Part shown: positions 1,072-40,660 of the stretch, piece by piece
Layout of the letters: each line of letters starts with the position of its first letter
Numbering within the stretch: position 1 is the first letter of the stretch
Origin: a virus
Reading direction: 5' to 3' (one strand)
DNA length: 49,595 bases
IMG/VR virus record: IMGVR_UViG_3300017917_003228
Location: 1-49,595 of that record
Position numbers and translations under genes: made by a program
The notes under the pieces: model-generated
What the model saw: the letters and a program-made list of their open reading frames with translations, nothing else
Told to the model about the DNA's origin: nothing
Database searches by the model: none

Positions 1072-1332
1072 ATGCAGAAAAAAACTCGTAGCATTTTAGA
1101 AGAACTCAACACCATATATGACGAGCGCCATGCCGAGCGTGATCGCCGTTACATTATTGAGAGTCGCGCGTCTAACGTGATTGCCAGTGCAGTCCGTTTG
1201 GTTGAAGAAATCGAACGAAACTACACACCTGAACAGGCTGACAATCTAGTGCGTAAGTTGCTGAATGCTATTAGAACCAAAGATCCAGGCAAATTTACTC
1301 GCACTGTGAGACGTACCGATGCAGATATTTGA
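1072..1332 (+). CDS. Small conserved phage protein, function unknown
   Basis: An 86-aa charged, mostly helical-looking protein rich in Arg and Glu, with no membrane segment or signal peptide. It follows a late-promoter-like box and overlaps the next start by 14 bases, so the two are probably co-transcribed. The neighbouring genes look virion-related. I recognise no functional motif. Confidence 0.7.
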   Translation: MQKKTRSILEELNTIYDERHAERDRRYIIESRASNVIASAVRLVEEIERNYTPEQADNLVRKLLNAIRTKDPGKFTRTVRRTDADI

Positions 1333-2110
1333 AATCACATCCAAAAAAAGGACCGATGAGGTAAACCTAGGAGCCACAGCAAAGGCCGTGGGTTCAGCTA
1401 TCTCCAATCGGGCGCTATCGGCCATTGGGCAAGCAGCCGGGGTCAGCGGTGCAGATTATGCTGCCGCCATGACCCAAAAACCCGGGCTCACCGGCGATGC
1501 TGCACAAGCCGCAGCTGCCAAGGCCGCAGCACCAATAATCCAACAGCAGGCTCGTGTTGCGCAGGCCGCCTGGAAAAATCAAATGGCTGCCATGGCTCGC
1601 AGCGCAGGCGGAGATTACTCGCAGCTGAACATGCAACAAAAAACCTATGCTCTTGACAAGTTTGTAAACGATCAATTGCTGGGCGGGCGGGTAACTGATT
1701 TTAGGCAACTGCCCAATCAAGTTGATCCTGCCAGCTTTGGCGGCAAAGGCGTGCAGTTGGCCAAGCAAACTGTGGCCAATATCGAAGCGGCAATGAACGC
1801 TGTGCTGGCCATGGACCCATTGAAAACTCCTGCTGCACAACAGGTGCAGGCCTGGCAACAGCTGGCTAGTCAAACCTACAATGCAACCAACCAGGCCACA
1901 TTTCAGCCTGGCACCGGTGCTGCAACCGCACAGAAAAAAGCACCCGCGGCTGCTGATCCAAGAACCGCTGCCATGATGGCAGCCATGGGCCTTGGTGCAG
2001 CTGACTTGGCCAAAATGAACGCCGCTGTCAACGCCAAGGGCGGGTTCAAAGGTCGTCCCACAGGCGACCCTTATATTGATGGCATGCTACGAGCTGCAAA
2101 ACTCATATGA
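1319..2110 (+). CDS. Ala/Gln-rich protein with MQIFEI leader, probable virion-associated protein
   Basis: 263 aa, very rich in Ala, Gln and Met, with long low-complexity helical stretches. The N-terminus MQIFEI contains an (I/L)-x-E tripeptide. T4 prohead protease gp21 cleaves after (L/I)-x-E, and T4 internal proteins carry such a site close to the N-terminus. The genes at 2107, 6589 and 40763 start in a similar way. A capsid-packaged or scaffold-associated role is therefore possible but inferred. The ATG overlaps the preceding gene, and the stop overlaps the next start as ATGA. Confidence 0.65.
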   Translation: MQIFEITSKKRTDEVNLGATAKAVGSAISNRALSAIGQAAGVSGADYAAAMTQKPGLTGDAAQAAAAKAAAPIIQQQARVAQAAWKNQMAAMARSAGGDYSQLNMQQKTYALDKFVNDQLLGGRVTDFRQLPNQVDPASFGGKGVQLAKQTVANIEAAMNAVLAMDPLKTPAAQQVQAWQQLASQTYNATNQATFQPGTGAATAQKKAPAAADPRTAAMMAAMGLGAADLAKMNAAVNAKGGFKGRPTGDPYIDGMLRAAKLI

Positions 2111-4035
2111 ACTTATTTGAAGGTGGTAATGTTTTCAAAGACGCGGACGGAAATCCGCTGACTCAACGCATCAATCAGAGCGATGTTGCTGCCACTGTGC
2201 AGTGGATTGAGCAACTGACTGGGCTTGAGTTTCCACGCGAGCGTTGGCTGGGGTCCACTGGCCGCAAGCCCACATCTGGTGACCTGGACCTTGCTGTGGA
2301 CCTGTCGGAGATTTCCAAGGCTGAATTGGCTGCAAGACTCAACAGTTGGGCAAAATCGCACCGGTTGGATCCTGCAAAATGGATCAAGGTAGGCGGCGAA
2401 ATTCACTTGCGTACTCCCATACAAGGTCGTCCCAACCTGGGCTTTGTGCAAACTGATTTCATGTTCTTTCCCAACCTGGATTGGGGCACATTCTTCTATG
2501 CAGGTGGCGAGGATTCCAGTTACAAAGGCATGATTCGTAATGTGCTCATGAGCAGCTTGGCCAAATCACAAGGACTCAAGATCGGTGCCAACGGAGTAAA
2601 GAGTCGAGCAACTGACCAACTGGTGAGCCAAGATCCTGACTGGGCGGCGCAAGCTGTGCTGGGACCAGGGCATGACCGCAACAGTCTCAAGAACGTGGAA
2701 ACCATTTACCGAGCACTGGCTCGTGACCCCAAACGAGATGACAAGCTCAAGGATTTTCGTGAATTCTTGGCTCGGGAGGGACTGCAAGAGCCTGACCTGG
2801 TGCAAGAAAACAGCGATGTCCACTTCCTGGCCCGCCTGCGAGATCGCATTGTAAATCAGGGCATGCGCCCCTTGATCGAACACGAGCGAGTGGACCCGAC
2901 CCAGTTGCAAGAAGCCGATGAACCAGGTGTGGGCGGTAGAGCCAAGGGCATCGAGCACCTGGAAGACTGGGTTTTTAGGGCAGGGCCCGAGGGTATTGCC
3001 CGAGCTCTCAAGATTGTTTCTCACATGGAACAAGCGCCCGGCACCACCACTGCCAAGTGGGACGGCAAGCCTGCTGTGATCTGGGGTCGCAAACCCAGCA
3101 CAGGTGAATTTGTGCTCACAGATGGTTCGGGGTTTGAAGCCAAGGGCTACGATGGCCTGGCCACCAGCCCACGAATGATGGCCGACATTCAGTCAAGACG
3201 CGCAGGCGAACGCGGTGCGTTGATTCAACTGTATCGAGATTTGTGGCCATACCTAGAAGCCAGCTTGCCGCCGAACTTCCGTGGTTATGTCAAGGGAGAT
3301 TTGTTGTACATGGAACAGCCGCCAGTTGAAGCTGGCAATTTTGTGTTTCAGCCCAATACCACAGTGTATCGCATACCAGTGCAGAGTGACCTAGGCAAGC
3401 GTATTGCTCAGTCCAACATTGGTGTTGCAGTGCATTCCATGTATGCAGATCAAGGCGAGCCGCGCCAGCCCTTGACTGGCATCAAGTTTCAGCCGGTGCC
3501 AGGTCTCATGCTGGAGCGTCCGGCCACTCCGTCTCGACTGCAGGCCGACCCCAAGCTGGTACAAAGTCTACGACGACTGCTCAAGACCGAGGGTGCAAAA
3601 ATGCAGGTGTTGTTTAATCCTGCTGAATTGCGATCCCAACAGATCACAGATTTGTTCAAGCTGGCAGTGGACTTTATCAATACCAAGGTGGGCTCACCAC
3701 TGCCTCCGGCCAACCAACTGATTGTGGAGTTTGGTGATTGGCTGCGCAACCGAGTGACACCACGCAAGTTCTACAACATCGTGGAATACCTCAACACACC
3801 AGCCACCAATACCGAGGCCCTGGCCGCTGCATTCCTGGCGTTTGAGCTGTTGCACGAACTAAAGATGCAACTCAAGGGCCAAGCTGATGCACAGTTTCCT
3901 GGGCAAGAAGGTTGGGTCATTGCCACCCCAGATGGATACGCCAAGTTGGTGGGACGTTTTGAACCCGAAGCGTTTGCTGCGCTGAACCGAATTAGAAACA
4001 ATCCTCAAACACCTGGAAATCAAGAAAAAGGCTAA
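2107..4035 (+). CDS. Two-domain nucleotidyltransferase / ligase-like protein
   Basis: 642 aa. The N-terminal third has a Pol-beta-superfamily nucleotidyltransferase signature: GS at residues 49-50, then GDLDL with carboxylates D59 and D61, and a plausible third carboxylate D117 in QTDFMF. The second half has motifs like covalent nucleotidyltransferases (DNA/RNA ligases, capping enzymes): KWDG at 317-320 (K317 the candidate nucleotidyl lysine), VKGDLLY near 395, EGWVI at 601-605 and AKLV with K613. It starts MNLFEG, an (I/L)-x-E type leader that might be processed by a prohead protease. The ATG overlaps the upstream stop (ATGA). Substrate unknown; nucleic-acid end repair or tRNA repair would fit both domains, but this is inference. 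Confidence 0.75.
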   Translation: MNLFEGGNVFKDADGNPLTQRINQSDVAATVQWIEQLTGLEFPRERWLGSTGRKPTSGDLDLAVDLSEISKAELAARLNSWAKSHRLDPAKWIKVGGEIHLRTPIQGRPNLGFVQTDFMFFPNLDWGTFFYAGGEDSSYKGMIRNVLMSSLAKSQGLKIGANGVKSRATDQLVSQDPDWAAQAVLGPGHDRNSLKNVETIYRALARDPKRDDKLKDFREFLAREGLQEPDLVQENSDVHFLARLRDRIVNQGMRPLIEHERVDPTQLQEADEPGVGGRAKGIEHLEDWVFRAGPEGIARALKIVSHMEQAPGTTTAKWDGKPAVIWGRKPSTGEFVLTDGSGFEAKGYDGLATSPRMMADIQSRRAGERGALIQLYRDLWPYLEASLPPNFRGYVKGDLLYMEQPPVEAGNFVFQPNTTVYRIPVQSDLGKRIAQSNIGVAVHSMYADQGEPRQPLTGIKFQPVPGLMLERPATPSRLQADPKLVQSLRRLLKTEGAKMQVLFNPAELRSQQITDLFKLAVDFINTKVGSPLPPANQLIVEFGDWLRNRVTPRKFYNIVEYLNTPATNTEALAAAFLAFELLHELKMQLKGQADAQFPGQEGWVIATPDGYAKLVGRFEPEAFAALNRIRNNPQTPGNQEKG

Positions 4036-5230: not shown

Positions 5231-5715
5231 GCGCAGACGAAAAACTCACTCGGTGGTTTGAAAAAAACCTCAGCGAACACATCAGCCGCATCATTATTGA
5301 TGGGCTTGACGGCGATGGCCTACTGGCTTTTGGCGCGTATCAAATCAAGCCCACAGACGGTAAATTTAGAGTCTGGTACTACAGTGACCTGCAGTCAGAT
5401 TTTAGCAGTTGCCGAGTGGCATTGAGCTACTGTGTGGCAGATCACAACGAACAACTGAGACTGGCCCGAGACATACAGGTGCTTGACTCAAAAAAACAAC
5501 AGTTGGATGCAGATGTCATGTTTGCCAAAGAGCAGGCTCGCTGCACCAAAAACACCAATGCCAGAGAAATAATTCTGACAAAAATTCAGACCAAAGAAGC
5601 CACCAGGCGCTTGGTCACAGCCGAACTTGAGAAATGTATCAAATCGGCTAAATATCTACAACTTCGAGGATTCTCAAATGAAACTGCAAGACTTAGCCGA
5701 AACAAAAGCCAGTAA
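5227..5715 (+). CDS. Unknown protein with helical C-terminal half
   Basis: 162 aa. The N-terminal half looks like a small alpha/beta domain, and the C-terminal half (from about residue 75) is Lys/Glu/Gln-rich and probably coiled coil. The start overlaps the preceding stop (ATGA). The 3' end overlaps the next gene by 38 bases in another frame, and a late-promoter-like box for that gene lies inside this coding sequence. No family recognised. Confidence 0.65.
   Translation: MSADEKLTRWFEKNLSEHISRIIIDGLDGDGLLAFGAYQIKPTDGKFRVWYYSDLQSDFSSCRVALSYCVADHNEQLRLARDIQVLDSKKQQLDADVMFAKEQARCTKNTNAREIILTKIQTKEATRRLVTAELEKCIKSAKYLQLRGFSNETARLSRNKSQ
5647..5654 (+). promoter_or_regulatory. Late-promoter-like box GCTAAATA
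   Basis: GCTAAATA is identical to the box at 4031 and lies 23 bases before the ATG at 5678, inside the 3' end of the preceding gene. Confidence 0.45.
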
Positions 5716-6592
5716 ACAAATCAGCAAGGTTTACGAAAGCTACTTCGGGAAAAAAATTGACATGGCTGCGTTTACCCCACGCATGGCCAGCCAAATGCTG
5801 TCGCGTGTGCGTTCGCTGATCAAAGAGCATCGCAGCACTATTTCTCGACACACCAGCGAGCAAAGCCCGGCATACCTAAAGTTGGTGATGATGGAACAAG
5901 CATTGAGTGCTCGTATCAAAGAAATGGCCCCAGCTGCTCCAGCTGCCCCAGGCGCACCGGCTCGCCCTGCTGCGCCATCTTCTGGATCAGTAACCACTGC
6001 TCCCAAGGTTGACCCCAAACTCAAGGCAGCACAAGACAAAGTCAAGCGTGGCCAGACACTGACCCCCGACGAACAAACCACACTGAACAACGCTGCGGCA
6101 CAGATGCAGGAAAACCGCCTGCGTAGAGCATGGCGCATGCTGAAAGAAAGCGAAGTTCAGCAAGCTCAAGTGGTGTTGGCTGCACAAGACATGGTAGACA
6201 AAATGCAAAGCATGCTCGAAGATGTCAGTGAAATGCAGTTCAAAGAATTGCCAGCACTGGTGGACAGCATCAAGAATCAAGTGGGCATGGATCAAGCTCA
6301 ACAATTCAACACCGATGCCACTGCAGCATTGACTGGTCTGCTGCAGAACATCCAAGGTGCCAAGCAACAGCTGGAAACAGCCCTGGGCGTGGTAACTGGG
6401 CAAGAGTCGCCCATGGCCAACATTGGTGATATCTCAGCAGGACAAGAACCTGCAGACTTTGCTGCTGGGCAAGCTGACCTTGATGCCGCAGCTGCCGATG
6501 CTGGTGGCGATGCCGAAGCTGAGTTGGATGACATTGCCAATCCCGATCAAGCGTTGGGCACCCAAGGTTCACTAGGACGTGCGCGCCGATGA
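5678..6592 (+). CDS. Conserved T4-like virion/assembly protein candidate
   Basis: 304 aa. ATG at 5678 (MKLQDLAETKASKQ) is preferred over an upstream in-frame codon because CGAGGA precedes it and a late-promoter-like box lies 23 bases upstream. It has an N-terminal helical domain, an Ala/Pro linker around residues 85-105, a second helical domain starting near RRAWRMLKESEVQQAQ, and an acidic Asp/Ala-rich tail. This looks like a scaffold, core or internal virion protein. The function is inferred from composition and position only. Confidence 0.65.
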   Translation: MKLQDLAETKASKQISKVYESYFGKKIDMAAFTPRMASQMLSRVRSLIKEHRSTISRHTSEQSPAYLKLVMMEQALSARIKEMAPAAPAAPGAPARPAAPSSGSVTTAPKVDPKLKAAQDKVKRGQTLTPDEQTTLNNAAAQMQENRLRRAWRMLKESEVQQAQVVLAAQDMVDKMQSMLEDVSEMQFKELPALVDSIKNQVGMDQAQQFNTDATAALTGLLQNIQGAKQQLETALGVVTGQESPMANIGDISAGQEPADFAAGQADLDAAAADAGGDAEAELDDIANPDQALGTQGSLGRARR

Positions 6593-6954
6593 AAATTTTT
6601 GAAGTAGACACTTCAGCAGTCACTTCAGCAGTCACCAAGCCCAACAGTCTAGTGGGCCTGGTGGACTTTCTTTCGGGTCGGGCCACAGACACCAACTCAC
6701 CCAAGCAAATCAGCCAAGATGCGTTTATTCGTTTGGCCAAGAGTTTGGGGGTTACTGTGTCCAGGGCCAGCCTGCCTGATTTGACCAACCAAGAGCCACT
6801 CAGCACCGTGGTTGAACCATTGCAGCCAAATTCCGAAGATCCACTGGTCTTCAAAGGTGGCGAACCAGCTGATGTTGCAATGCCAGTTGACAAGGCCCAG
6901 GACATTGTGGCCAAGGCCGCCAAGAAAGCTGCAGGCCGCGATCGCGGCGTTTGA
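6589..6954 (+). CDS. MKIFEV-leader small phage protein
   Basis: 121 aa. The N-terminus MKIFEV carries an (I/L)-x-E tripeptide, as in the genes at 1319 and 2107, matching the specificity known for T4 gp21 protease. The rest is soluble, with a Lys/Ala-rich C-terminus. Start and previous stop overlap (ATGA), so it is coupled to the 304-aa gene. A perfect 14-bp palindrome (6935-6948) lies in the last codons. Virion association is inferred. Confidence 0.65.
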   Translation: MKIFEVDTSAVTSAVTKPNSLVGLVDFLSGRATDTNSPKQISQDAFIRLAKSLGVTVSRASLPDLTNQEPLSTVVEPLQPNSEDPLVFKGGEPADVAMPVDKAQDIVAKAAKKAAGRDRGV

Positions 6955-10515: not shown

Positions 10516-12861
10516 ATGAAAACAATCACAGTATTAAAACGTAACGGACAGCGCGAGCCGTTGGCGCTGGAAAAGTGGCAGACGCAGATATCCAAAGTGT
10601 GTGCAGGCATTGCTGACGTAAGTCAGAGCATGATTGAAATCAAGGCGCAGATGCACTTTTATGACGGCATCAGCACCAAGGACATTGACGGTATCACCTT
10701 GCGAGCAATTGTGGACTTGATCGACGTCGAAACCAACCCTGACGTGGGTCACACCAACTATCAGTATGTGGCCGGCAAGCAAAGACTCAGCATGCTGCGC
10801 AAGGATGTGTATGGCAGTTATGAACCCATGCACTTGTATGAAATTGTCAAGCGCAACGTGGAAGTGGGCTTGTACACTCCTGAACTGCTGGAGTGGTATT
10901 CAGCCGAGGACTGGGATCGCATGAACAACATGTTGGATCACAGCCGGGACGAGCAATACTCATATGCTGCTATTGAGCAATTGATCGAAAAGTACCTGGT
11001 CAAGAACCGCAGCACAGGCAAAGTGTACGAAACACCTCAGGTGCGCTACATGGTTGCTGCCGCCACTGTGTTCCACAAAGAAGAGCCCAACGCGGCTCGC
11101 ATGCGCTACATCAAGGAATATTACAATGCAGCTAGTGATGGTTTATTCACTCTTGCTACCCCTGTGCTTGCTGGTCTCGGTACACCTACTAAACAATTTA
11201 GTTCTTGCGTCCTTATCCGCAGTGATGATGATCTTGATAGCATTTTCGCCAGCGGAGAAATGATGGCCAAGTATGCCAGCAAACGTGCTGGCATTGGCTT
11301 GGAGATTGGTCGCCTGCGTCCTTTGGGCTCGCCCATTCGTGGCGGTGAAATCATGCACACCGGCATGGTGCCGTTCTTGAAGAAGTGGTTTGGCGATCTG
11401 AGGTCATGCAGCCAAGGTGGTATTCGCAATGCATCAGCTACCATCTTCTATCCCATCTGGCATTACCAGTTCGACGACCTGATTGTGCTCAAGAACAACC
11501 AGGGCACTGACGAAACCCGTGTGCGTCACATGGACTATGGTGTGGTGCTGAGTGCGTTCTTCTGGAGACGCTTCAAGCGCAAAGAAAACATCACGTTCTT
11601 TGACCCCAACCAAGTGCCGGATCTGTACGAAGCATTCTATCGCGACACCAAAAAGTTCGAAGAACTCTATGTCAAATACGAAGCTGACACCAGCCTGCGC
11701 CGCAAGGTCATGAGTGCAGAAGAAGTGTTCAAGGGCGGCATCCTCAAAGAGCGCACCGACACTGGCCGCATCTACCTGGTGTTCATTGACAATGTCATGA
11801 ACCAAGGCCCGTTTGATCCTGAATACCACACCATCTACCAGAGCAACCTCTGCTGCGAGATCTTGTTGCCTACACGACCATTCAAACGCTTGGATGACGA
11901 TCAAGGTCGTATTGCTCTTTGTACATTGGGCTCGATCAATTGGGGTGCGTTCCGAAATCCCGAAGACATGCGCCGTGCATGCCGTATCCTGGCTCGCAGT
12001 CTCAACAACATCCTGGACTACCAAGACTTCCTCAGCATCCAGAGCCGTCTCAGCAACGAAGAAATTCGCCCCTTGGGCATTGGTGTCACCAACCTGGCCT
12101 ACTGGCACGCCAAGCGTGGCATGCGGTATGGCGAAGCCGATGCCTTGGCTGAAGTCAAGACCTGGATGGAACACCAGGCCTACTACCTGACCGAAGTCAC
12201 TGTGGAACTGGCTCGCGAACGCGGCGCCTGCCTTGACAGCGCCCGCACACGTTATGGTCAAGGTGAGTTTCCTTGGGAGCGCCGTGCTGAAGGCGTGAAC
12301 GAACTCACCAGTTTCCAGCCCGAGCTGGATTGGGAACCCCTGCGCGAGCAAATGAAACAACACGGTGTTCGCAATGCCACCTTGATGGCCATCGCACCTG
12401 TGGAAAGCTCCAGCGTGGTCATCAACTCAACCAACGGCATTGAAATGCCCATGAGCTTGATCAGCACCAAGGAAAGCAAGGCCGGCAGTTTTGTGCAAGT
12501 GGTGCCTGAGTATCACAAGCTCAAGAACCGGTATCAACTGATGTGGGATTCGGATTGCCAAGGCTACATCAAGACCGCTGCGGTGTTGGCTGCCTACACT
12601 GATCAAAGCATCAGCACCAACACATTCTACAACCCTGCCCACTTCCCGGGCCGCAAGGTGCCCACCACCCTGATTGCCACCAACCTCATGCTGGCACACC
12701 ACTGGGGTCTCAAGACCTTCTACTACAGCTTGATCAACAAGCAAGGTTCCAAGTCACAAACGGAACAGGACCCGTTGGTCACATTCACTCAAGGCAAAGA
12801 CCCCACTGTGCCTGTGTTTGTGGACCAAGACGACGCTGACTGCGAGGCATGCAAACTATGA
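10516..12861 (+). CDS. nrdA: Class Ia ribonucleoside-diphosphate reductase, large subunit
   Basis: 781 aa, typical NrdA length. It reduces NDPs to dNDPs for phage DNA synthesis together with NrdB. Residues 1-90 form an ATP-cone-like regulatory domain. Active-site cysteines are C231 (SSCVL) and C469 (LCTLGSIN), with the radical-site motif N444-L-C446-C-E448. A Tyr pair in LKTFYYSL matches the radical-transfer tyrosines. The C-terminal CEAC (C776, C779) would be reduced by glutaredoxin, and a glutaredoxin gene lies 3 kb downstream. The stop overlaps the DadA-like start (ATGA). Confidence 0.97.
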   Translation: MKTITVLKRNGQREPLALEKWQTQISKVCAGIADVSQSMIEIKAQMHFYDGISTKDIDGITLRAIVDLIDVETNPDVGHTNYQYVAGKQRLSMLRKDVYGSYEPMHLYEIVKRNVEVGLYTPELLEWYSAEDWDRMNNMLDHSRDEQYSYAAIEQLIEKYLVKNRSTGKVYETPQVRYMVAAATVFHKEEPNAARMRYIKEYYNAASDGLFTLATPVLAGLGTPTKQFSSCVLIRSDDDLDSIFASGEMMAKYASKRAGIGLEIGRLRPLGSPIRGGEIMHTGMVPFLKKWFGDLRSCSQGGIRNASATIFYPIWHYQFDDLIVLKNNQGTDETRVRHMDYGVVLSAFFWRRFKRKENITFFDPNQVPDLYEAFYRDTKKFEELYVKYEADTSLRRKVMSAEEVFKGGILKERTDTGRIYLVFIDNVMNQGPFDPEYHTIYQSNLCCEILLPTRPFKRLDDDQGRIALCTLGSINWGAFRNPEDMRRACRILARSLNNILDYQDFLSIQSRLSNEEIRPLGIGVTNLAYWHAKRGMRYGEADALAEVKTWMEHQAYYLTEVTVELARERGACLDSARTRYGQGEFPWERRAEGVNELTSFQPELDWEPLREQMKQHGVRNATLMAIAPVESSSVVINSTNGIEMPMSLISTKESKAGSFVQVVPEYHKLKNRYQLMWDSDCQGYIKTAAVLAAYTDQSISTNTFYNPAHFPGRKVPTTLIATNLMLAHHWGLKTFYYSLINKQGSKSQTEQDPLVTFTQGKDPTVPVFVDQDDADCEACKL

Positions 12862-14042
12862 AGCAAACCGTGGCTGTTGTGGGCGCCGGCATCACTGGCG
12901 TGACCACCGCTTACTATCTTGCTCAGCAAGGTTTCGATGTCACTGTGTACGAACAGGAACACTACGAGGCCATGCGCACCAGTTTTGCCAATGGCGGCCA
13001 GGTGTCAGTGTCCAACTCTGAAGTATGGACCACGTGGAGCAATGTCAACAAAGGCCTGCGCTGGATGTTTCAAAAGGATGCACCACTGCTGGTGCGTCCC
13101 AGACTGGATCCAGCACAGTGGCGCTGGATGCTCAAGTTCTTGTGGCATACCATTGCGGGTCACTACGAAAAAAACACCATGGACACCATTGACATGGGCT
13201 TGGAATCGCGCAAGTTGTATGCTCACATGATTCAACAAGAGAGTCTGCATTTTGATCAGTTGCATGCTGGCATTTTGCATTTCTACAAAGACCCCAAGTA
13301 TCTAGCATCGGCTGCACAAGCACAACGGTTGTATCACTGGGCAGGATGTGATTGGGACATGGTCACACCCGAACAAATCACTCAACAGTATCCTCAATTG
13401 GCTGATGTTGACCACCTGCTGGGCGGCGCAGTCACGGCCTCTGACTGGACCGGGGACATTCACAAGTTCTGTCGCGAGCTGTGTGCTGTGCTCAAAAGCA
13501 AGTATCATGTGAACTTTGTGTTTGACACCCAACCCCGCATGCAGATGTTGTTGGACAACTTTGATGCTGTGGTGGTATGTGCTGGCGTAGGCAGTGTGGA
13601 TCTGGCTCAACAAGTGGGCGACCGCCTGGATATCTATCCAGTCAAAGGTTACAGCATAACTATTGAACTGGATGCTGCAAGTGCAGCACATGCACCGCAT
13701 GTGAGTTTGTTGGACGATCAGGCAAAGATAGTAACCGCTAGACTGGGCAATCGATTCCGGGTAGCAGGCACAGCCGAGTTGGCAGGCGAAAATTACGACA
13801 TACGCAGGGATCGAATCGAGCCATTGCTGAAGTGGGTACATGTCAACTTCCCCAAGATCAACACGCAAAACTACTCCAGCTGGGCATGTTTGCGTCCCAT
13901 GACACCCAACATGATGCCAATTGTGAAACAAAGTCACAAGCATGGTCGAGTGTTTTACAACACTGGGCATGGGCACTTGGGTTGGACTTTGGCGCCGGCC
14001 ACTGCAAACAAGATTGCAAAAATTGTCAAGGATACCATATGA
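12858..14042 (+). CDS. DadA-like FAD-dependent D-amino-acid dehydrogenase
   Basis: 394 aa. The N-terminus VAVVGAGITGVTTAYYLA is a dinucleotide-binding GxGxxG (G9, G11, G14) with the acidic end of beta-2 in VTVYEQ. The rest follows the DAO/DadA layout, including the late segment RPMTPNMMPIV and GHGHLGWTLAPATA that closes the FAD site. DadA oxidises D-amino acids, mainly D-alanine, to 2-oxo acids and passes electrons to the respiratory chain. ATG at 12858 overlaps the nrdA stop, and its own stop overlaps the nrdB ATG, so it is wedged in the RNR operon with coupled translation. A related glycine/sarcosine oxidase-type activity is the main alternative. Confidence 0.85.
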   Translation: MKQTVAVVGAGITGVTTAYYLAQQGFDVTVYEQEHYEAMRTSFANGGQVSVSNSEVWTTWSNVNKGLRWMFQKDAPLLVRPRLDPAQWRWMLKFLWHTIAGHYEKNTMDTIDMGLESRKLYAHMIQQESLHFDQLHAGILHFYKDPKYLASAAQAQRLYHWAGCDWDMVTPEQITQQYPQLADVDHLLGGAVTASDWTGDIHKFCRELCAVLKSKYHVNFVFDTQPRMQMLLDNFDAVVVCAGVGSVDLAQQVGDRLDIYPVKGYSITIELDAASAAHAPHVSLLDDQAKIVTARLGNRFRVAGTAELAGENYDIRRDRIEPLLKWVHVNFPKINTQNYSSWACLRPMTPNMMPIVKQSHKHGRVFYNTGHGHLGWTLAPATANKIAKIVKDTI

Positions 14043-19419: not shown

Positions 19420-20790
19420 ATGATTGACTACTCCCAAGAAAGTTTTAATGGTGTTATGGCCGCAGGATGGATTCGCGACCTGGAAAGTTCTGACAGTCGG
19501 CTTCACAAAGAAGCTGTGATTGGGAAAGCCTTGATGGCCGCAAAACTGGGCAGCGCTGACGCACAGTGTTTTCTGTTCAACGCCTATCAGGCCTACAATC
19601 CCTATTACACTTTCAACGTGCGTCAAGTGCCTGAGACTGTGGGCTTGACTGGGCGTGACAATCCCTGGCCCCAGTTCTGGGCTCTGTTGGAAAACCTGCG
19701 CACTCGTGCAGTGACTGGCCATGCTGCTCGCGATCGCATTGCTGAATGCTCGCAACTGTTTGACAGCGATCAGTGGAACACCTTGTGCCGACGTGTGATC
19801 ACCAAGGATCTGCGCTGCGGCATCAGCGAAAAAACTCTCAACAAGGTGCTGGGCAAGACTGACTGGGCTATCCCAGTGTTCACTTGCCAGCTGGCTCAGG
19901 ACTCTACTGAACAACAGCAAAAACTTCGTGGCCAACGCCGCTTGGAAGTCAAGCTGGACGGCGTGCGTGTGCTGGCTGTGGTGCAGGGCATGAACACCAC
20001 TTTGTTCAGCCGTAACGGCAAGGAGTTTGAAAACTTCCCGCAGATTGTTGAAGCCATTGACCGGGCTCGTGTGTTGTTTCAGCGCGCCAACCCCAAGGTC
20101 ACCAGGTTTGTGCTGGACGGTGAGGTCATGGGCGAGAGCTTTCAAAAGCTCATGCGTCAAGCTCGTCGCAAACGTGATGCCAACACCGACAACATGGTGT
20201 ATCACATCTTTGACATCATTCCCTTGGATCAGTTCCAGGAAGGCGTTTGCCGCACCCCCCAGAGCACTCGTATTGAGTGGCTGGAACAGGCTGCAGCGGA
20301 CCTCAAGAGCATGACCGACTGCCTGCGTGTGATGCCAGGCATGACAGTGGACCTGGACACTGCCGAAGGCCACGACATCATGCGCCGCTTTGCCGAAGCT
20401 GCAGTTGAACAAGGCTACGAGGGCATCATGATCAAAGATCTGGATGCGCCCTATCGTTGCAAGCGTGTGGATGCCTGGATGAAGTGGAAGCCCACCATCA
20501 CTGTGGACTTGACCATTGTGGGTTTTGAAGAAGGTACTGGTCGCAATCTCGGGCGCTTGGGTGCTATAATTTGTGAAGGAGACGACAATGGACGTCATAT
20601 TCGGGTCAATGTTGGCAGTGGCTTTAGTGATGGCAATCGCGATGAGTATTGGACCGAGCGGCATGCTTTGGTTGGTCACTTGGTTGAAGTCCAAGCTGAC
20701 GCAGTCACCCAAAACCAAGACGGATCTTACAGCTTGCGATTCCCGCGATTTCTGAGATTCCGCGATTTTGAAGCTGGCAGCAAAGTGTAA
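19420..20790 (+). CDS. ATP-dependent DNA ligase
   Basis: 456 aa, similar in length to T4 gp30 (487). Motif I is EVKLDGVR with nucleotidyl lysine K178. Later motifs are ENFPQ, LDGEVMG (III), EGIMIKD (IV) and WMKWKP (V), plus the OB-fold segment RVNVGSGFSD. It seals nicks during phage replication and repair. It has its own early promoter; no good Shine-Dalgarno is seen before ATG 19420. The OB-domain region hides a small hydrophobic ORF in another frame (20588-20755). Confidence 0.95.
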   Translation: MIDYSQESFNGVMAAGWIRDLESSDSRLHKEAVIGKALMAAKLGSADAQCFLFNAYQAYNPYYTFNVRQVPETVGLTGRDNPWPQFWALLENLRTRAVTGHAARDRIAECSQLFDSDQWNTLCRRVITKDLRCGISEKTLNKVLGKTDWAIPVFTCQLAQDSTEQQQKLRGQRRLEVKLDGVRVLAVVQGMNTTLFSRNGKEFENFPQIVEAIDRARVLFQRANPKVTRFVLDGEVMGESFQKLMRQARRKRDANTDNMVYHIFDIIPLDQFQEGVCRTPQSTRIEWLEQAAADLKSMTDCLRVMPGMTVDLDTAEGHDIMRRFAEAAVEQGYEGIMIKDLDAPYRCKRVDAWMKWKPTITVDLTIVGFEEGTGRNLGRLGAIICEGDDNGRHIRVNVGSGFSDGNRDEYWTERHALVGHLVEVQADAVTQNQDGSYSLRFPRFLRFRDFEAGSKV

Positions 20791-37505: not shown

Positions 37506-39677
37506 ATGAAACTGCACACTGCCGTCCAAGACCAAGCTGTCCTCAGCAACGTGGGTACCACAGGCGAGTTCCGTATTCGCAACAGTGCCAAGGCCTTCAA
37601 CATCCTGAGCTCGGGCTTGTATGCCAACAAGATCCGTGCTGTGATCCGCGAACTCAGCTGCAACGCCGTGGACAGTCACGTGGCAGCCGGTCGTGTGAAC
37701 ACACCGTTTGATGTGCACCTGCCCACTGTGCTGGAGCCTTGGTTCAGCGTTCGTGACTACGGCACCGGACTCAGCCACGAACAGGTCACAAACATCTACA
37801 CCACCTACTTTGAGAGCACCAAGACTGCCAGCAACGACTTCATTGGTGCCTTGGGCCTGGGCAGCAAGAGCCCGTTCAGCTACACCACCAACTTCACTGT
37901 GACTGCCATTCAAGCTGGTCGCAAGGGCATCTACACTGCGTTCATCAATGATGCAGGCGTGCCCAGCATCGCCCTCATGAGCGAACAAGCGCTGACTGAC
38001 GAACCCACTGGCGTGGAAGTGCGGTTCAGCGTGGACGATACCGGTGACTTTAGTCGCTTCCGCTCAGAAGCTCGTCAGGTCTACACCTGGTTCCAGTTGC
38101 GACCAGTGGTGCACGGTGGCGGCGATCATTTTGAAATCCCACAGCAAGAATACCTGCATCGGGATCTGGTGCCAGGTGTGCACCAACGCCAGGGCCAACG
38201 CGGCAGCGTGGCTGTGATGGGCAACATTGCCTATCCAGTTGATGTGCCCAACTCAGACCAGGTGCTGGGCGACCTGCGCTACATGCTGAACGAAGGTCTT
38301 GAAATGCACTTTGGCATTGGCGAACTGGACTTCCAGGCCAGCCGCGAAGGTCTGTCTTACATTCCCGAAACTGTGGCGGCCATCCGTGGTCGCTTGGAAG
38401 CCCTGCGTGACGCCATGCTGGTCACCCTGCGTGTGGAAGCCGATGCCATTGAGAATGAATGGGATCGTGCTCTGTTTCTGAACGAGCGGCATGGCAGCAA
38501 CCTGTGGCGATCCGCGGTGCAGAAATACTGCCAGGACACCAAGTTCCCCCTGTTCAGCCCTGATGCCAGCAGCTGGGAACGACTGATGCGCTTTGAAATT
38601 CCAGTTGAAGACCTGGCTGCACACAACATCCAGATTCGCAGTTTCACCTACGGTCACCACAGCAACTCCTGCAGCATCTGCCAGCCCTCCACTGTGCACA
38701 GCCGTCAAGTGGGGGTACCAGATACCAAACGCTGGGAGATCCGAGTGAGTGACCACTTGAATTTCGTGGTCAATGACACTCGCACAGGCGCAACCGAACG
38801 AGCCAAGTATCACTGGCGCAACAGCAAGAACCAGACCCGGAATCGCAATCAGCAGGTGTATGTGCTGGAACCAGTGGATCGCAAACTGCCCATGCAGCTG
38901 GACACATTCTGGCAACTGTTGCGCAACCCGCCACAGAAGCAACGCATGCTGGCCAGCAGTCTCCAACAACGGCCGCGTGATGTCCAGCGAGGTGCTGGCC
39001 CAATTTCGATCATGGTGCTGCAAGAGGTTCAGCGCGGGTATTACAACCGCAATGCCGAAGCCACCTGGCGCCCTGCGGGCAACACGCAGAACTTTGATCG
39101 CACTGTGACCCATTACTACCTGCCCCTGAGTGGTCTCACTTGTGTGGGTCGCACCGCCGATGTCAAGAGCCTTTACACCTACATTGCCAACAGCGGCATC
39201 ATGGGCGATGCCAAAATCTACGGCGTTCGCAAGAGCGACATCGAAACCGTGCGCAAAATGCCCAACTGGGTGAACTTGGACGAAGAGATCCAGCGGCGTC
39301 TGACCAACTTGGACACCAGTCTCATGCTGTCAACGGTGAAACAGACCATTGACTGGGAAAGTTATTTCTGCTACAATGCTCACAAGCATGTGACAGATCC
39401 CAACAGCGTGTATCTGCAACTGTATCAGGCGTTTGCCCAGGTGCGCGATGTGAAAAACCGCGCTCAGGTGCTCACAGCATACCAAAATCTGGGCCGCATC
39501 TACCAAACTGGCGATCAATCGGCCAGCTTGGCAGCACTGGAGGTCAAGTACTTGGATCTGCGAGATCAAATGCTTCAGCGTTATCCCCTGCTGAAGTATC
39601 TCAGAACCACTGCATCAGGGGAGAGTTTGGCACAATACATCAACTTGGTTGATGCTTCACAAGGAGTTAGCAAATGA
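37506..39677 (+). CDS. rIIA: rIIA-like protein (GHKL ATPase fold)
   Basis: 723 aa, the size of T4 RIIA (725). The N-terminal GHKL ATP-binding motifs are visible: IRELSCNAVDSH (N box), VRDYGTGLSH (G1-like) and FIGALGLGSKSPFSYT (G2/lid). RIIA with RIIB protects against the lambda Rex exclusion system in T4 and is membrane-associated; its molecular role is still unclear. The stop overlaps the rIIB start (ATGA). Confidence 0.92.
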   Translation: MKLHTAVQDQAVLSNVGTTGEFRIRNSAKAFNILSSGLYANKIRAVIRELSCNAVDSHVAAGRVNTPFDVHLPTVLEPWFSVRDYGTGLSHEQVTNIYTTYFESTKTASNDFIGALGLGSKSPFSYTTNFTVTAIQAGRKGIYTAFINDAGVPSIALMSEQALTDEPTGVEVRFSVDDTGDFSRFRSEARQVYTWFQLRPVVHGGGDHFEIPQQEYLHRDLVPGVHQRQGQRGSVAVMGNIAYPVDVPNSDQVLGDLRYMLNEGLEMHFGIGELDFQASREGLSYIPETVAAIRGRLEALRDAMLVTLRVEADAIENEWDRALFLNERHGSNLWRSAVQKYCQDTKFPLFSPDASSWERLMRFEIPVEDLAAHNIQIRSFTYGHHSNSCSICQPSTVHSRQVGVPDTKRWEIRVSDHLNFVVNDTRTGATERAKYHWRNSKNQTRNRNQQVYVLEPVDRKLPMQLDTFWQLLRNPPQKQRMLASSLQQRPRDVQRGAGPISIMVLQEVQRGYYNRNAEATWRPAGNTQNFDRTVTHYYLPLSGLTCVGRTADVKSLYTYIANSGIMGDAKIYGVRKSDIETVRKMPNWVNLDEEIQRRLTNLDTSLMLSTVKQTIDWESYFCYNAHKHVTDPNSVYLQLYQAFAQVRDVKNRAQVLTAYQNLGRIYQTGDQSASLAALEVKYLDLRDQMLQRYPLLKYLRTTASGESLAQYINLVDASQGVSK

Positions 39678-40660
39678 GTTTACCTTTTATCATTCAGGGC
39701 AACAACATCACCGTGGTGATCGACAACCGCCCACACACCGTGAGCAAGTCTCACATCACCTACAATCGAGTGCTTGACGCAATCAAGGCCCAGGACTGGG
39801 ACTCGGTGCGCGACTTGATTGAACCCAAGCAAGTGGTGCTGAACTATGGTGCTGGCCATGTGAGCATCCAGGGTCAGGAACTGTACTGGAAGGGCCGGCC
39901 CATGCACAACGCCCTGGCCTCGCGCATGATCTCCATGCTGCAGGAAGGGTTTCCCGTTGAGCCCCTGGCAAACTTCATGCACAATCTCATGGAGAACCCC
40001 AGCAAGCGAGCCGTGGATGAGCTGTATGGCTTCTTGGAAAAGAACAGCCTACCCATCACGCCCGACGGCCACTTCCTTGCTTACAAAAAGGTGCGCATGG
40101 ACTACCTGGACATTCATTCGGGTACCATGGACAACAGCGTGGGCAAGATCGTGGAGATGGAACGCAACGAGGTCGACGACAACCGCGACCAAACCTGCAG
40201 CACTGGCCTGCACTTCTGCAGCCAGGAATACCTGCCGCACTTTGGTGGTAGCAACAGTCGAGTGGTGATTGTCAAGATCAATCCGCGTGACGTGGTGTCT
40301 ATCCCCAGCGACTACAACAACGCCAAGGGCCGTGCATGTCGTTACGAAGTGGTGGGCGAAATCGGCAACGATGGTGACAAGATCGACAGTGCCTTTTCGA
40401 AGCCAGTTCAGGCCAACGCTGTGAACAACATCGCACCTGCCCCCGCGCCTCGTGAACCCAAGACTGGCAGCACCGAGTTCTATCGTGGTTACACTGACGG
40501 GTGGACCGCCAGCGAATACGATGTTGACGCTGACCGTAACTACGACGAAGGTTACAACAAAGGCACCGCAGATGCTGCCCGAGGGGTCGAGCGCTACGCT
40601 TATGTGGCACCGGCTGCACCTACTGCATCAGCAGGCAGCTGGCCCATGCCCCGAAAGTAA
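39674..40660 (+). CDS. rIIB: rIIB-like protein
   Basis: 328 aa (T4 RIIB 312). Its position directly after rIIA, with coupled start and AAGGAG, and segments such as FMHNLMENPSKRAVDELYGF, HFLAYKKVRMDY and STGLHFCSQEYL, identify the family. The C-terminal 80 residues are an added Gly/Tyr/acidic stretch (FYRGYTDGWTASEYDVDADR) that recalls the tail of the 76-aa protein at 35863. A dyad and terminator follow. Confidence 0.92.
   Translation: MSLPFIIQGNNITVVIDNRPHTVSKSHITYNRVLDAIKAQDWDSVRDLIEPKQVVLNYGAGHVSIQGQELYWKGRPMHNALASRMISMLQEGFPVEPLANFMHNLMENPSKRAVDELYGFLEKNSLPITPDGHFLAYKKVRMDYLDIHSGTMDNSVGKIVEMERNEVDDNRDQTCSTGLHFCSQEYLPHFGGSNSRVVIVKINPRDVVSIPSDYNNAKGRACRYEVVGEIGNDGDKIDSAFSKPVQANAVNNIAPAPAPREPKTGSTEFYRGYTDGWTASEYDVDADRNYDEGYNKGTADAARGVERYAYVAPAAPTASAGSWPMPRK

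Follow-up and report, generated by a model that had tools for sequence, protein, structure and literature searches.

Polymerase-ligase fusions, such as PgVPolX and LigD, and pairs of a nucleotidyltransferase (NTase) with a ligase, such as those of RlaP, are already known kinds of arrangement. In PgVPolX from Phaeocystis globosa virus, a Pol-beta core and a DNA ligase form one protein, which has been shown biochemically to fill and seal gaps (PMC5537341). The window analyzed here, a 49,595-nucleotide stretch of viral DNA (IMG/VR record IMGVR_UViG_3300017917_003228), encodes a protein in which a Pol-beta-type NTase domain is followed by a ligase-like domain and preceded by a putative packaging leader. 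Within the literature searched, the NTase family, the ligase-like reading of the second domain (DUF6267), the occurrence of such a fusion in phages and the packaging leader are new.

Architecture of the fusion protein

The open reading frame at 2107-4035 (plus strand, ATG start, 642 aa) is real and shares an ATGA overlap with the preceding gene. Its product is assigned by PHROGs to phrog_455, function unknown. AlphaFold2 (AF2), run with a 45-sequence alignment, gave two confident domains at about residues 4-231 and 281-634, joined by a disordered linker at residues 232-280; no mutual orientation of the two domains is fixed in this model (pTM 0.53). The features of the gene are as follows.

2107..2121 (+), putative prohead-protease leader MNLFE, residues 1-5, with [LI]-x-E before GGNVF in 80/80 relatives
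2122..2799 (+), N-terminal domain of the Pol-beta NTase superfamily, residues 6-231, predicted from AF2, VIA and homologous stand-alone proteins
2251..2289 (+), GS motif (G49-S50, R53) and carboxylates D59-x-D61, with G, S, D and D invariant in 17 diverse NTase-domain sequences
2455..2457 (+), third predicted catalytic carboxylate D117 (Q-x-D-x-M), invariant, on predicted strand 113-121
2800..2946 (+), flexible linker, residues 232-280 (49 residues), with pLDDT <50 and missing from stand-alone homologues
2947..4008 (+), C-terminal ligase-like domain DUF6267 (PF19782), residues 281-634, predicted from Pfam (5e-27), AF2 and VIA
3055..3066 (+), ligase motif I, K317-W-D-G, its lysine predicted to be adenylylated, with K, D and G invariant in 53 DUF6267 sequences
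3295..3309 (+), motif III-like G397-D-L-L-Y, Asp replacing Glu, with D398 invariant, on strand 393-401
3550..3894 (+), helical insertion between motifs III and IV, residues 482-596, from DSSP on the AF2 models
3907..3957 (+), motif IV, E601-G-W-V, and motif V, K613-L-V-G-R617, with E, G, V, K, V and R invariant and the block also present in the stand-alone ligase-like family

A preliminary description of this DNA had proposed that one protein pairs the two nucleotidyl-transfer chemistries, as would suit RNA or DNA end repair, and such a role is plausible. The motifs that it quoted are all found in place: G49-S50, D59-L60-D61, D117, K317-W-D-G320, V395-K-G-D-L-L-Y401, E601-G-W-V-I605 and K613. 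They are not a product of chance, being invariant across 24 full-length, 53 DUF6267 and 17 NTase-domain sequences. Among the 24 dereplicated full-length homologues, which come from viral contigs and are 65-75% identical, the invariant residues are G49, S50, D59, D61, D117, K317, W318, D319, G320, D398, E601, G602, V604 and K613. In the predicted structures, judged by strand placement, the motif residues occupy the expected strands in the expected order, and no contrary fold appeared. The presence of both domains in one protein is backed by fold prediction, structure comparison and independent gene pairings.

The N-terminal domain

The N-terminal 230 residues had no Pfam family match, and the AF2 pLDDT of this domain is mostly >90. 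In the VIA comparison with DNA polymerase beta, residues 11-197 of the model were superimposed on residues 139-334 or thereabouts of Pol beta (Z 10.5, rmsd 3.4, 160 aligned). The best 50 structures were family X DNA polymerases (beta, lambda and mu) with Z of about 10, and the Foldseek matches in the PDB were weak (best E 3.6e-3). At the level of the predicted fold, the part of Pol beta covered is the palm and C-terminal subdomain without the 8-kDa domain, and the model suggests the corresponding core of a family X DNA polymerase. G49, S50, D59, D61, Q115 and D117 are invariant in the 17 NTase-domain sequences. The GS motif, the D-x-D, the third carboxylate and the modelled fold all point to membership of the Pol-beta nucleotidyltransferase superfamily.

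The aligned palm begins already about 10 residues into the protein, and the 8-kDa dRP-lyase domain is absent. This absence makes a canonical Pol beta less likely but is compatible with a minimal Pol X; the Pol X of ASFV also lacks the 8-kDa dRP-lyase domain. None of the 17 NTase-domain members matched the RlaP profile (PF10127) at E values up to 1, and the family matched neither CCA nor other Pfam NTase profiles. RlaP identity was accordingly rejected for this domain, which may still share a fold-level kinship with RlaP.

The C-terminal ligase-like domain

Residues 282-619 match the Pfam family DUF6267 (PF19782) with an E value of 5e-27 and 95.6 bits, against a curated cut-off of 27. DUF6267 is present in 345 phage records, mostly of T4-like cyanophages, and a literature text search found no paper mentioning this family. 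When the domain was refolded alone by AF2 with 53 sequences, a confident model was obtained (pLDDT 86, pTM 0.84), for which the best 50 PDB entries in VIA were all polynucleotide ligases (Z 6.7-9.2). These include the Naegleria RNA ligase (9.2), Trl1 (7.7), T4 Rnl2 (7.6), T4 Rnl1 (7.5) and human DNA ligase I (7.2). In Foldseek against the PDB, DNA ligase III was the top match (probability 0.98, with a weak E of 2.6e-3). Among viral models outside DUF6267 itself, the best matches were RNA ligases, the first of which was a 324-aa RNA ligase of Agrobacterium phage Atu_ph07; its equal length suggests that it is the product of the gene directly upstream of the Atu_ph07 NTase. VIA Z scores of 7-9 are modest alone, and the weight of the comparison comes from the uniform list, the order of the motifs and the sequence bridge to a stand-alone ligase-like family.

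This bridge was seen with profiles. Of 14 members of the stand-alone family, seven matched PF09414 (RNA_ligase) and six matched DUF6267, all below the cut-off, and hhalign of DUF6267 against the family gave an E of 2.2e-5 and a probability of 76 over motifs IV-V. Side-by-side reading revealed H-x-E-D before motif I and KxDG in both families, as well as P-N-x-x-x-Y after motif III and the block K-h-V-x-[RK]-x-x-F-x-x-x-N. PDB sequence searches with the 642-aa protein, and with profiles of the C-terminal domain, the stand-alone ligase family and the NTase family, returned nothing credible, only helical false matches.

Across the 53 DUF6267 sequences, which reach down to about 22% identity, K317, D319, G320, D398, E601, G602, V604, K613, V615 and R617 are invariant. 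The motif I KxDG on a modelled ligase fold suggests a covalent nucleotidyltransferase. Ligases usually have Glu in motif III and K-x-K in motif V; all DUF6267 members have instead D398 and K613-x-V615, a correction to the motifs of the preliminary description, whose pairing and leader readings were otherwise supported. The stand-alone relatives retain the motif III Glu and mostly have K-x-V in motif V. An OB-fold domain after motif V is absent, just 29 residues following K613, so that nick sealing by this domain is predicted only. With Asp for Glu, no second lysine in motif V and no OB fold, its activity as a whole is likewise a prediction, and the comparisons make DUF6267 a candidate ligase.

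Recurrent pairing of the two domains

The fusion is encoded by a family of large T4-like phages, and the two domains are joined in 80/80 close relatives. Atu_ph07 and Phosso encode the NTase on its own, with 31% identity to the N-terminal domain of the window protein. The beginning of this NTase gene overlaps the end of the preceding one, in which EKLDGS, EGVV and other ligase-like blocks occur. In PA5oct, both genes are present, two genes apart. A scan with the stand-alone ligase-like family alone found 12 loci; the NTase is the next gene in 11 of them, with an 8-bp overlap in nearly all. The sole locus without an adjoining NTase (L278, 5764-8118) encodes a protein of 785 aa, in which the ligase-like domain is accompanied by a long uncharacterized C-terminal half. 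A scan of bacterial and archaeal contigs with the fused-family alignment found no cellular relatives.

In cyanophage-type loci, a HIGH-type cytidylyltransferase follows DUF6267 on the same strand, mostly touching or nearly so, and is fused to it in five cases; phrog_455 spans both families. Taken together, these loci show the ligase-like domain coupled to an NTase in three ways: fused to a Pol-beta type, beside a Pol-beta type, and beside or fused to a HIGH type. Another family, phrog_13937, whose members start with ...KRNNxxIFLxKI..., was also encountered. In S-CAM9 (L084, 5057-5983) it immediately precedes DUF6267, whereas in PA5oct (EST35_0229; L196, 4641-5660) it lies in the stretch between the ligase-like gene and that of the NTase; it is possibly a third component of the pair.

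Genome context

The genes of the window that bear on the fusion, besides helicase and exonuclease genes in its neighborhood, are listed here.

1072..1332 (+), 86-aa protein, PHROG 11854 virion structural protein, with [IL]LE near the N-terminus
1319..2110 (+), 263-aa protein starting MQIFE, with M-x-[LI]-x-E in 49/49 orthologues
5678..6592 (+), protein starting MKLQDLAE, with M-K-L-x-E in 43/43 orthologues from other loci and L-A-E at residues 6-8 in the window
6589..6954 (+), 121-aa protein starting MKIFE, with M-x-[LI]-x-E in 32/33 orthologues
19420..20790 (+), separate canonical ATP-dependent DNA ligase (PF01068, 6.6e-23, and an OB-fold domain)

With a canonical DNA ligase already encoded in the window, the fusion protein is likely a specialized enzyme; a replicative ligase was ruled out, the window and a related genome of 331 kb each having their own ATP-dependent DNA ligase. 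A related genome contains 24 tRNA genes and no PF09414 or PF10127 proteins. Elsewhere in the window, homologues of rIIA and rIIB (37506-40660) support a T4-like phage, and an FAD-dependent oxidoreductase of the D-amino-acid oxidase type (12849-14042), an unusual phage cargo, directly follows the gene of the ribonucleotide reductase large subunit.

The N-terminal leader and virion evidence

The protease gp21 of T4 cuts after L/I-x-E (PMC9026906), and the LFE of the window protein had been read as a putative site of this kind. Comparison lends support to the reading. Among the 80 relatives, the residues before GGNVF are LLE (64), LFE (4), LKE (4), INE (3), LQE (3), IFE (1) and LTE (1), the E being invariant and the middle residue variable. 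Stand-alone NTases from Atu_ph07, Phosso, PA5oct and the other scanned loci start with M-GG or M-SG at the point where the leader ends, and cutting after E5 would thus leave their N-terminus. The putative cut would produce an N-terminal GGNVF.

Three neighbors, unrelated to the fusion protein and to each other (1319-2110, 6589-6954 and 5678-6592), have M-x-[LI]-x-E in 49/49, 32/33 and 43/43 orthologues, with variability highest at x, against 0/191 in three other neighbors used as a control. By this shared start, the three products are candidate packaged head proteins. The related 331-kb genome encodes an S77 prohead protease, from which the presence of such a protease in this phage lineage is judged, and a capsid protein of the gp23 type, which has several L/I-x-E sites toward its N-terminal end. 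In its L/I-x-E near the N-terminus, the fusion protein resembles the head proteins processed by gp21, as far as sequence can tell. No overall enrichment of the leader was found across the related genome; within the cluster its frequency is modestly raised (5/16 vs 29/362, p 0.009, after one misplaced start was corrected). The case for the leader thus rests on orthologue conservation. A further leader-like start, M-[KR]-W-x-Q-L-x-E, is shared by all members of a tandem array of seven paralogues of about 255 aa in Atu_ph07 (L083, 10643-16060). An invariant Y-R-G, R, D, S and E after the leader recall ADP-ribosyltransferases, and searches of Pfam and the PDB gave no convincing match for the array.

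Evidence from virions is available for proteins of other phages. The NTase homologue of PA5oct, EST35_0231, is annotated as a structural protein by ESI-MS/MS; most genes around it are also MS-annotated, including the homologue of the 5678-6592 product, and this block is syntenic with the window. The PA5oct ligase-like protein is not among the MS-detected proteins, and the DUF6267 protein of Syn1 is labelled hypothetical, not virion. By our count, the NTase and ligase-like genes of Atu_ph07 are gp65 and gp66, inside the cluster CDS 31-76, from which 29 proteins were detected in virions, a count for the cluster and not for these two products (PMC6102473). Virions of S-SM1 contained the cyanophage cytidylyltransferase partner (PMC3037559), as did those of S-CREM2, where the authors warn that co-purification is possible (PMC10665884). 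The cytidylyltransferases encoded beside DUF6267 (L087-L166, L198-L277) carry T4-like signals, including MKNFSSFLTE, MKSFLQFISE and MSFFNRVKTILE, each before an A, and others; 75/124 have [LI]-x-E within the first 20 residues, start codons being uncertain. Such capsid targeting sequences may explain the repeated detection of this enzyme in virions. The case for packaging is strongest for the NTase partner and would extend to the window protein, both halves of which are one chain.

A different reading is that the protein is an ordinary repair enzyme acting inside the cell and left out of the head, its leader being coincidental or serving another purpose. The virion evidence does come from proteins of other phages, and the enrichment of the leader is modest and confined to the cluster. 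We consider this reading unlikely: the leader is kept in every relative while its middle residue varies freely, it recurs on unrelated neighbors and not on the controls, and the PA5oct homologue is annotated as detected in virions.

Proposed function

The explanation that we prefer, to which we assign a little less than an even chance, is a polynucleotide repair enzyme with two active sites joined by a linker, marked by its leader for the phage head and delivered with the genome. The Pol-beta-type domain would extend a 3' end or fill a short gap by one or a few nucleotides through two-metal catalysis on D59, D61 and D117, with the GS loop holding the triphosphate. The ligase-like domain would transfer AMP to K317 and then to a 5'-phosphate, after which the nick would be sealed, and the flexible 49-residue linker would let both domains act in turn. 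The [LI]-x-E leader probably marks the protein for the head, where the prohead protease would trim it before it enters the cell with the genome. The folds, the invariance of the motifs, the pairing, the link to the head and the precedent of PgVPolX (PMC5537341) were counted in favor. Against it were counted the departures in motifs III and V, the missing OB fold, the PA5oct ligase-like protein not detected by MS, the hypothetical label in Syn1, a leader of 5 residues against 10-20 in T4, the weak Foldseek E values and the DNA ligase already present in the window.

As for the substrate, we lean modestly toward DNA over RNA. The family X fold, the helicase and exonuclease neighbors and delivery with DNA favor the former; the ligase relatives and the precedent of RlaP NTases, proposed to work with Rnl-type ligases (PMC7824862), favor the latter. 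A reading that overlaps with the preferred one and commits to RNA is that nucleotides are restored to cleaved tRNAs or other RNAs, which are then resealed in the manner of RlaP and Rnl. The RNA ligases that best match the C-terminal domain and the PF09414 matches of the stand-alone partner family, below cut-off as they are, agree with it. So does a related genome with 24 tRNA genes and without PF09414 or PF10127 proteins of its own; moreover, an enzyme arriving with the genome would meet host anticodon nucleases at once. RNA repair in this strict sense nevertheless seems unlikely, because the N-terminal domain is closest to family X DNA polymerases and matched no RlaP, CCA or other Pfam NTase profile, and because Atu_ph07 has the pair plus separate RlaP and RNA_ligase genes, so that RlaP alone does not account for the pair in that phage.

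Use of nucleotidyl transfer away from nucleic-acid ends, to make a modified nucleotide or cofactor or to modify a host protein on entry, would account for the exchange of a Pol-beta NTase for the unrelated HIGH-type fold beside cyanophage DUF6267 and for the unusual motifs III and V, and T4 Alt is a precedent for a head enzyme injected to modify host proteins (PMC9503650), but this reading is quite improbable, as the structural neighbors of the C-terminal domain are all polynucleotide ligases among the best 50 and the helicase-exonuclease neighborhood suits work on DNA.

The preferred explanation, repair of polynucleotides by a packaged enzyme, may be extended to a wider and more tentative one, which we think rather doubtful: several T4-like lineages would carry head-packaged NTases that work with an unrecognized ligase family, DUF6267 and its stand-alone cousins, and in the lineage of the window a single packaged chain would repair gaps and nicks of the incoming genome, or RNA, before phage gene expression. 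If true, this would be a repair-on-arrival enzyme in a bacteriophage, linking phage head proteins with nucleic-acid repair at the moment of entry. DUF6267, found in several hundred deposited phages, mostly T4-like cyanophages, and with no prior assigned function, becomes a candidate ligase; its tie to NTases that have head-targeting signals or are annotated as virion-found offers a testable guess about unexplained virion enzymes. A new polymerase-ligase reagent is a further possibility.

Comparison with known systems

Bacterial LigD, like the window protein, has polymerase and ligase in one chain. It differs in that its polymerase is of the primase type, not Pol-beta, and its ligase has an OB fold. 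PgVPolX and the window protein share the order of polymerase first and ligase second; PgVPolX, however, is 1,093 aa long, includes an 8-kDa lyase domain and has motifs I-VI in its NAD+-dependent ligase (PMC5537341), whereas the window protein is from a phage and combines a minimal polymerase part of about 200 aa with DUF6267 lacking an OB fold and with a head-protease-type leader. ASFV Pol X is likewise a minimal family X polymerase that has no accessory domains for DNA binding and acts in repair together with a ligase (PMC5330486, PMC6344480). By its published description it is set apart by separate genes and a canonical DNA ligase.

RlaP (PF10127) and Rnl-type RNA ligases of jumbo phages likewise pair a Pol-beta-type NTase with an ATP-grasp ligase (PMC7824862). 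The window protein differs from them in being fused and in the lack of an RlaP profile match among the 17 NTase members, and Atu_ph07 encodes an RlaP elsewhere as well. The internal head proteins of T4 and Alt have, as here, a short N-terminal leader ending in [LI]-x-E on unrelated proteins of one cluster (PMC9026906); the leaders of the window cluster, where cleavage is putative, have 5-9 residues (5 in the fusion) against 10-20 in T4 (PMC5694885). Finally, the DUF6267/phrog_455 proteins of T4-like cyanophages (T4-GC 71) are homologous to the C-terminal domain of the window protein and have the same invariant motifs. Their partner is a HIGH-type cytidylyltransferase, adjacent or fused, whereas that of the window protein is a Pol-beta NTase.
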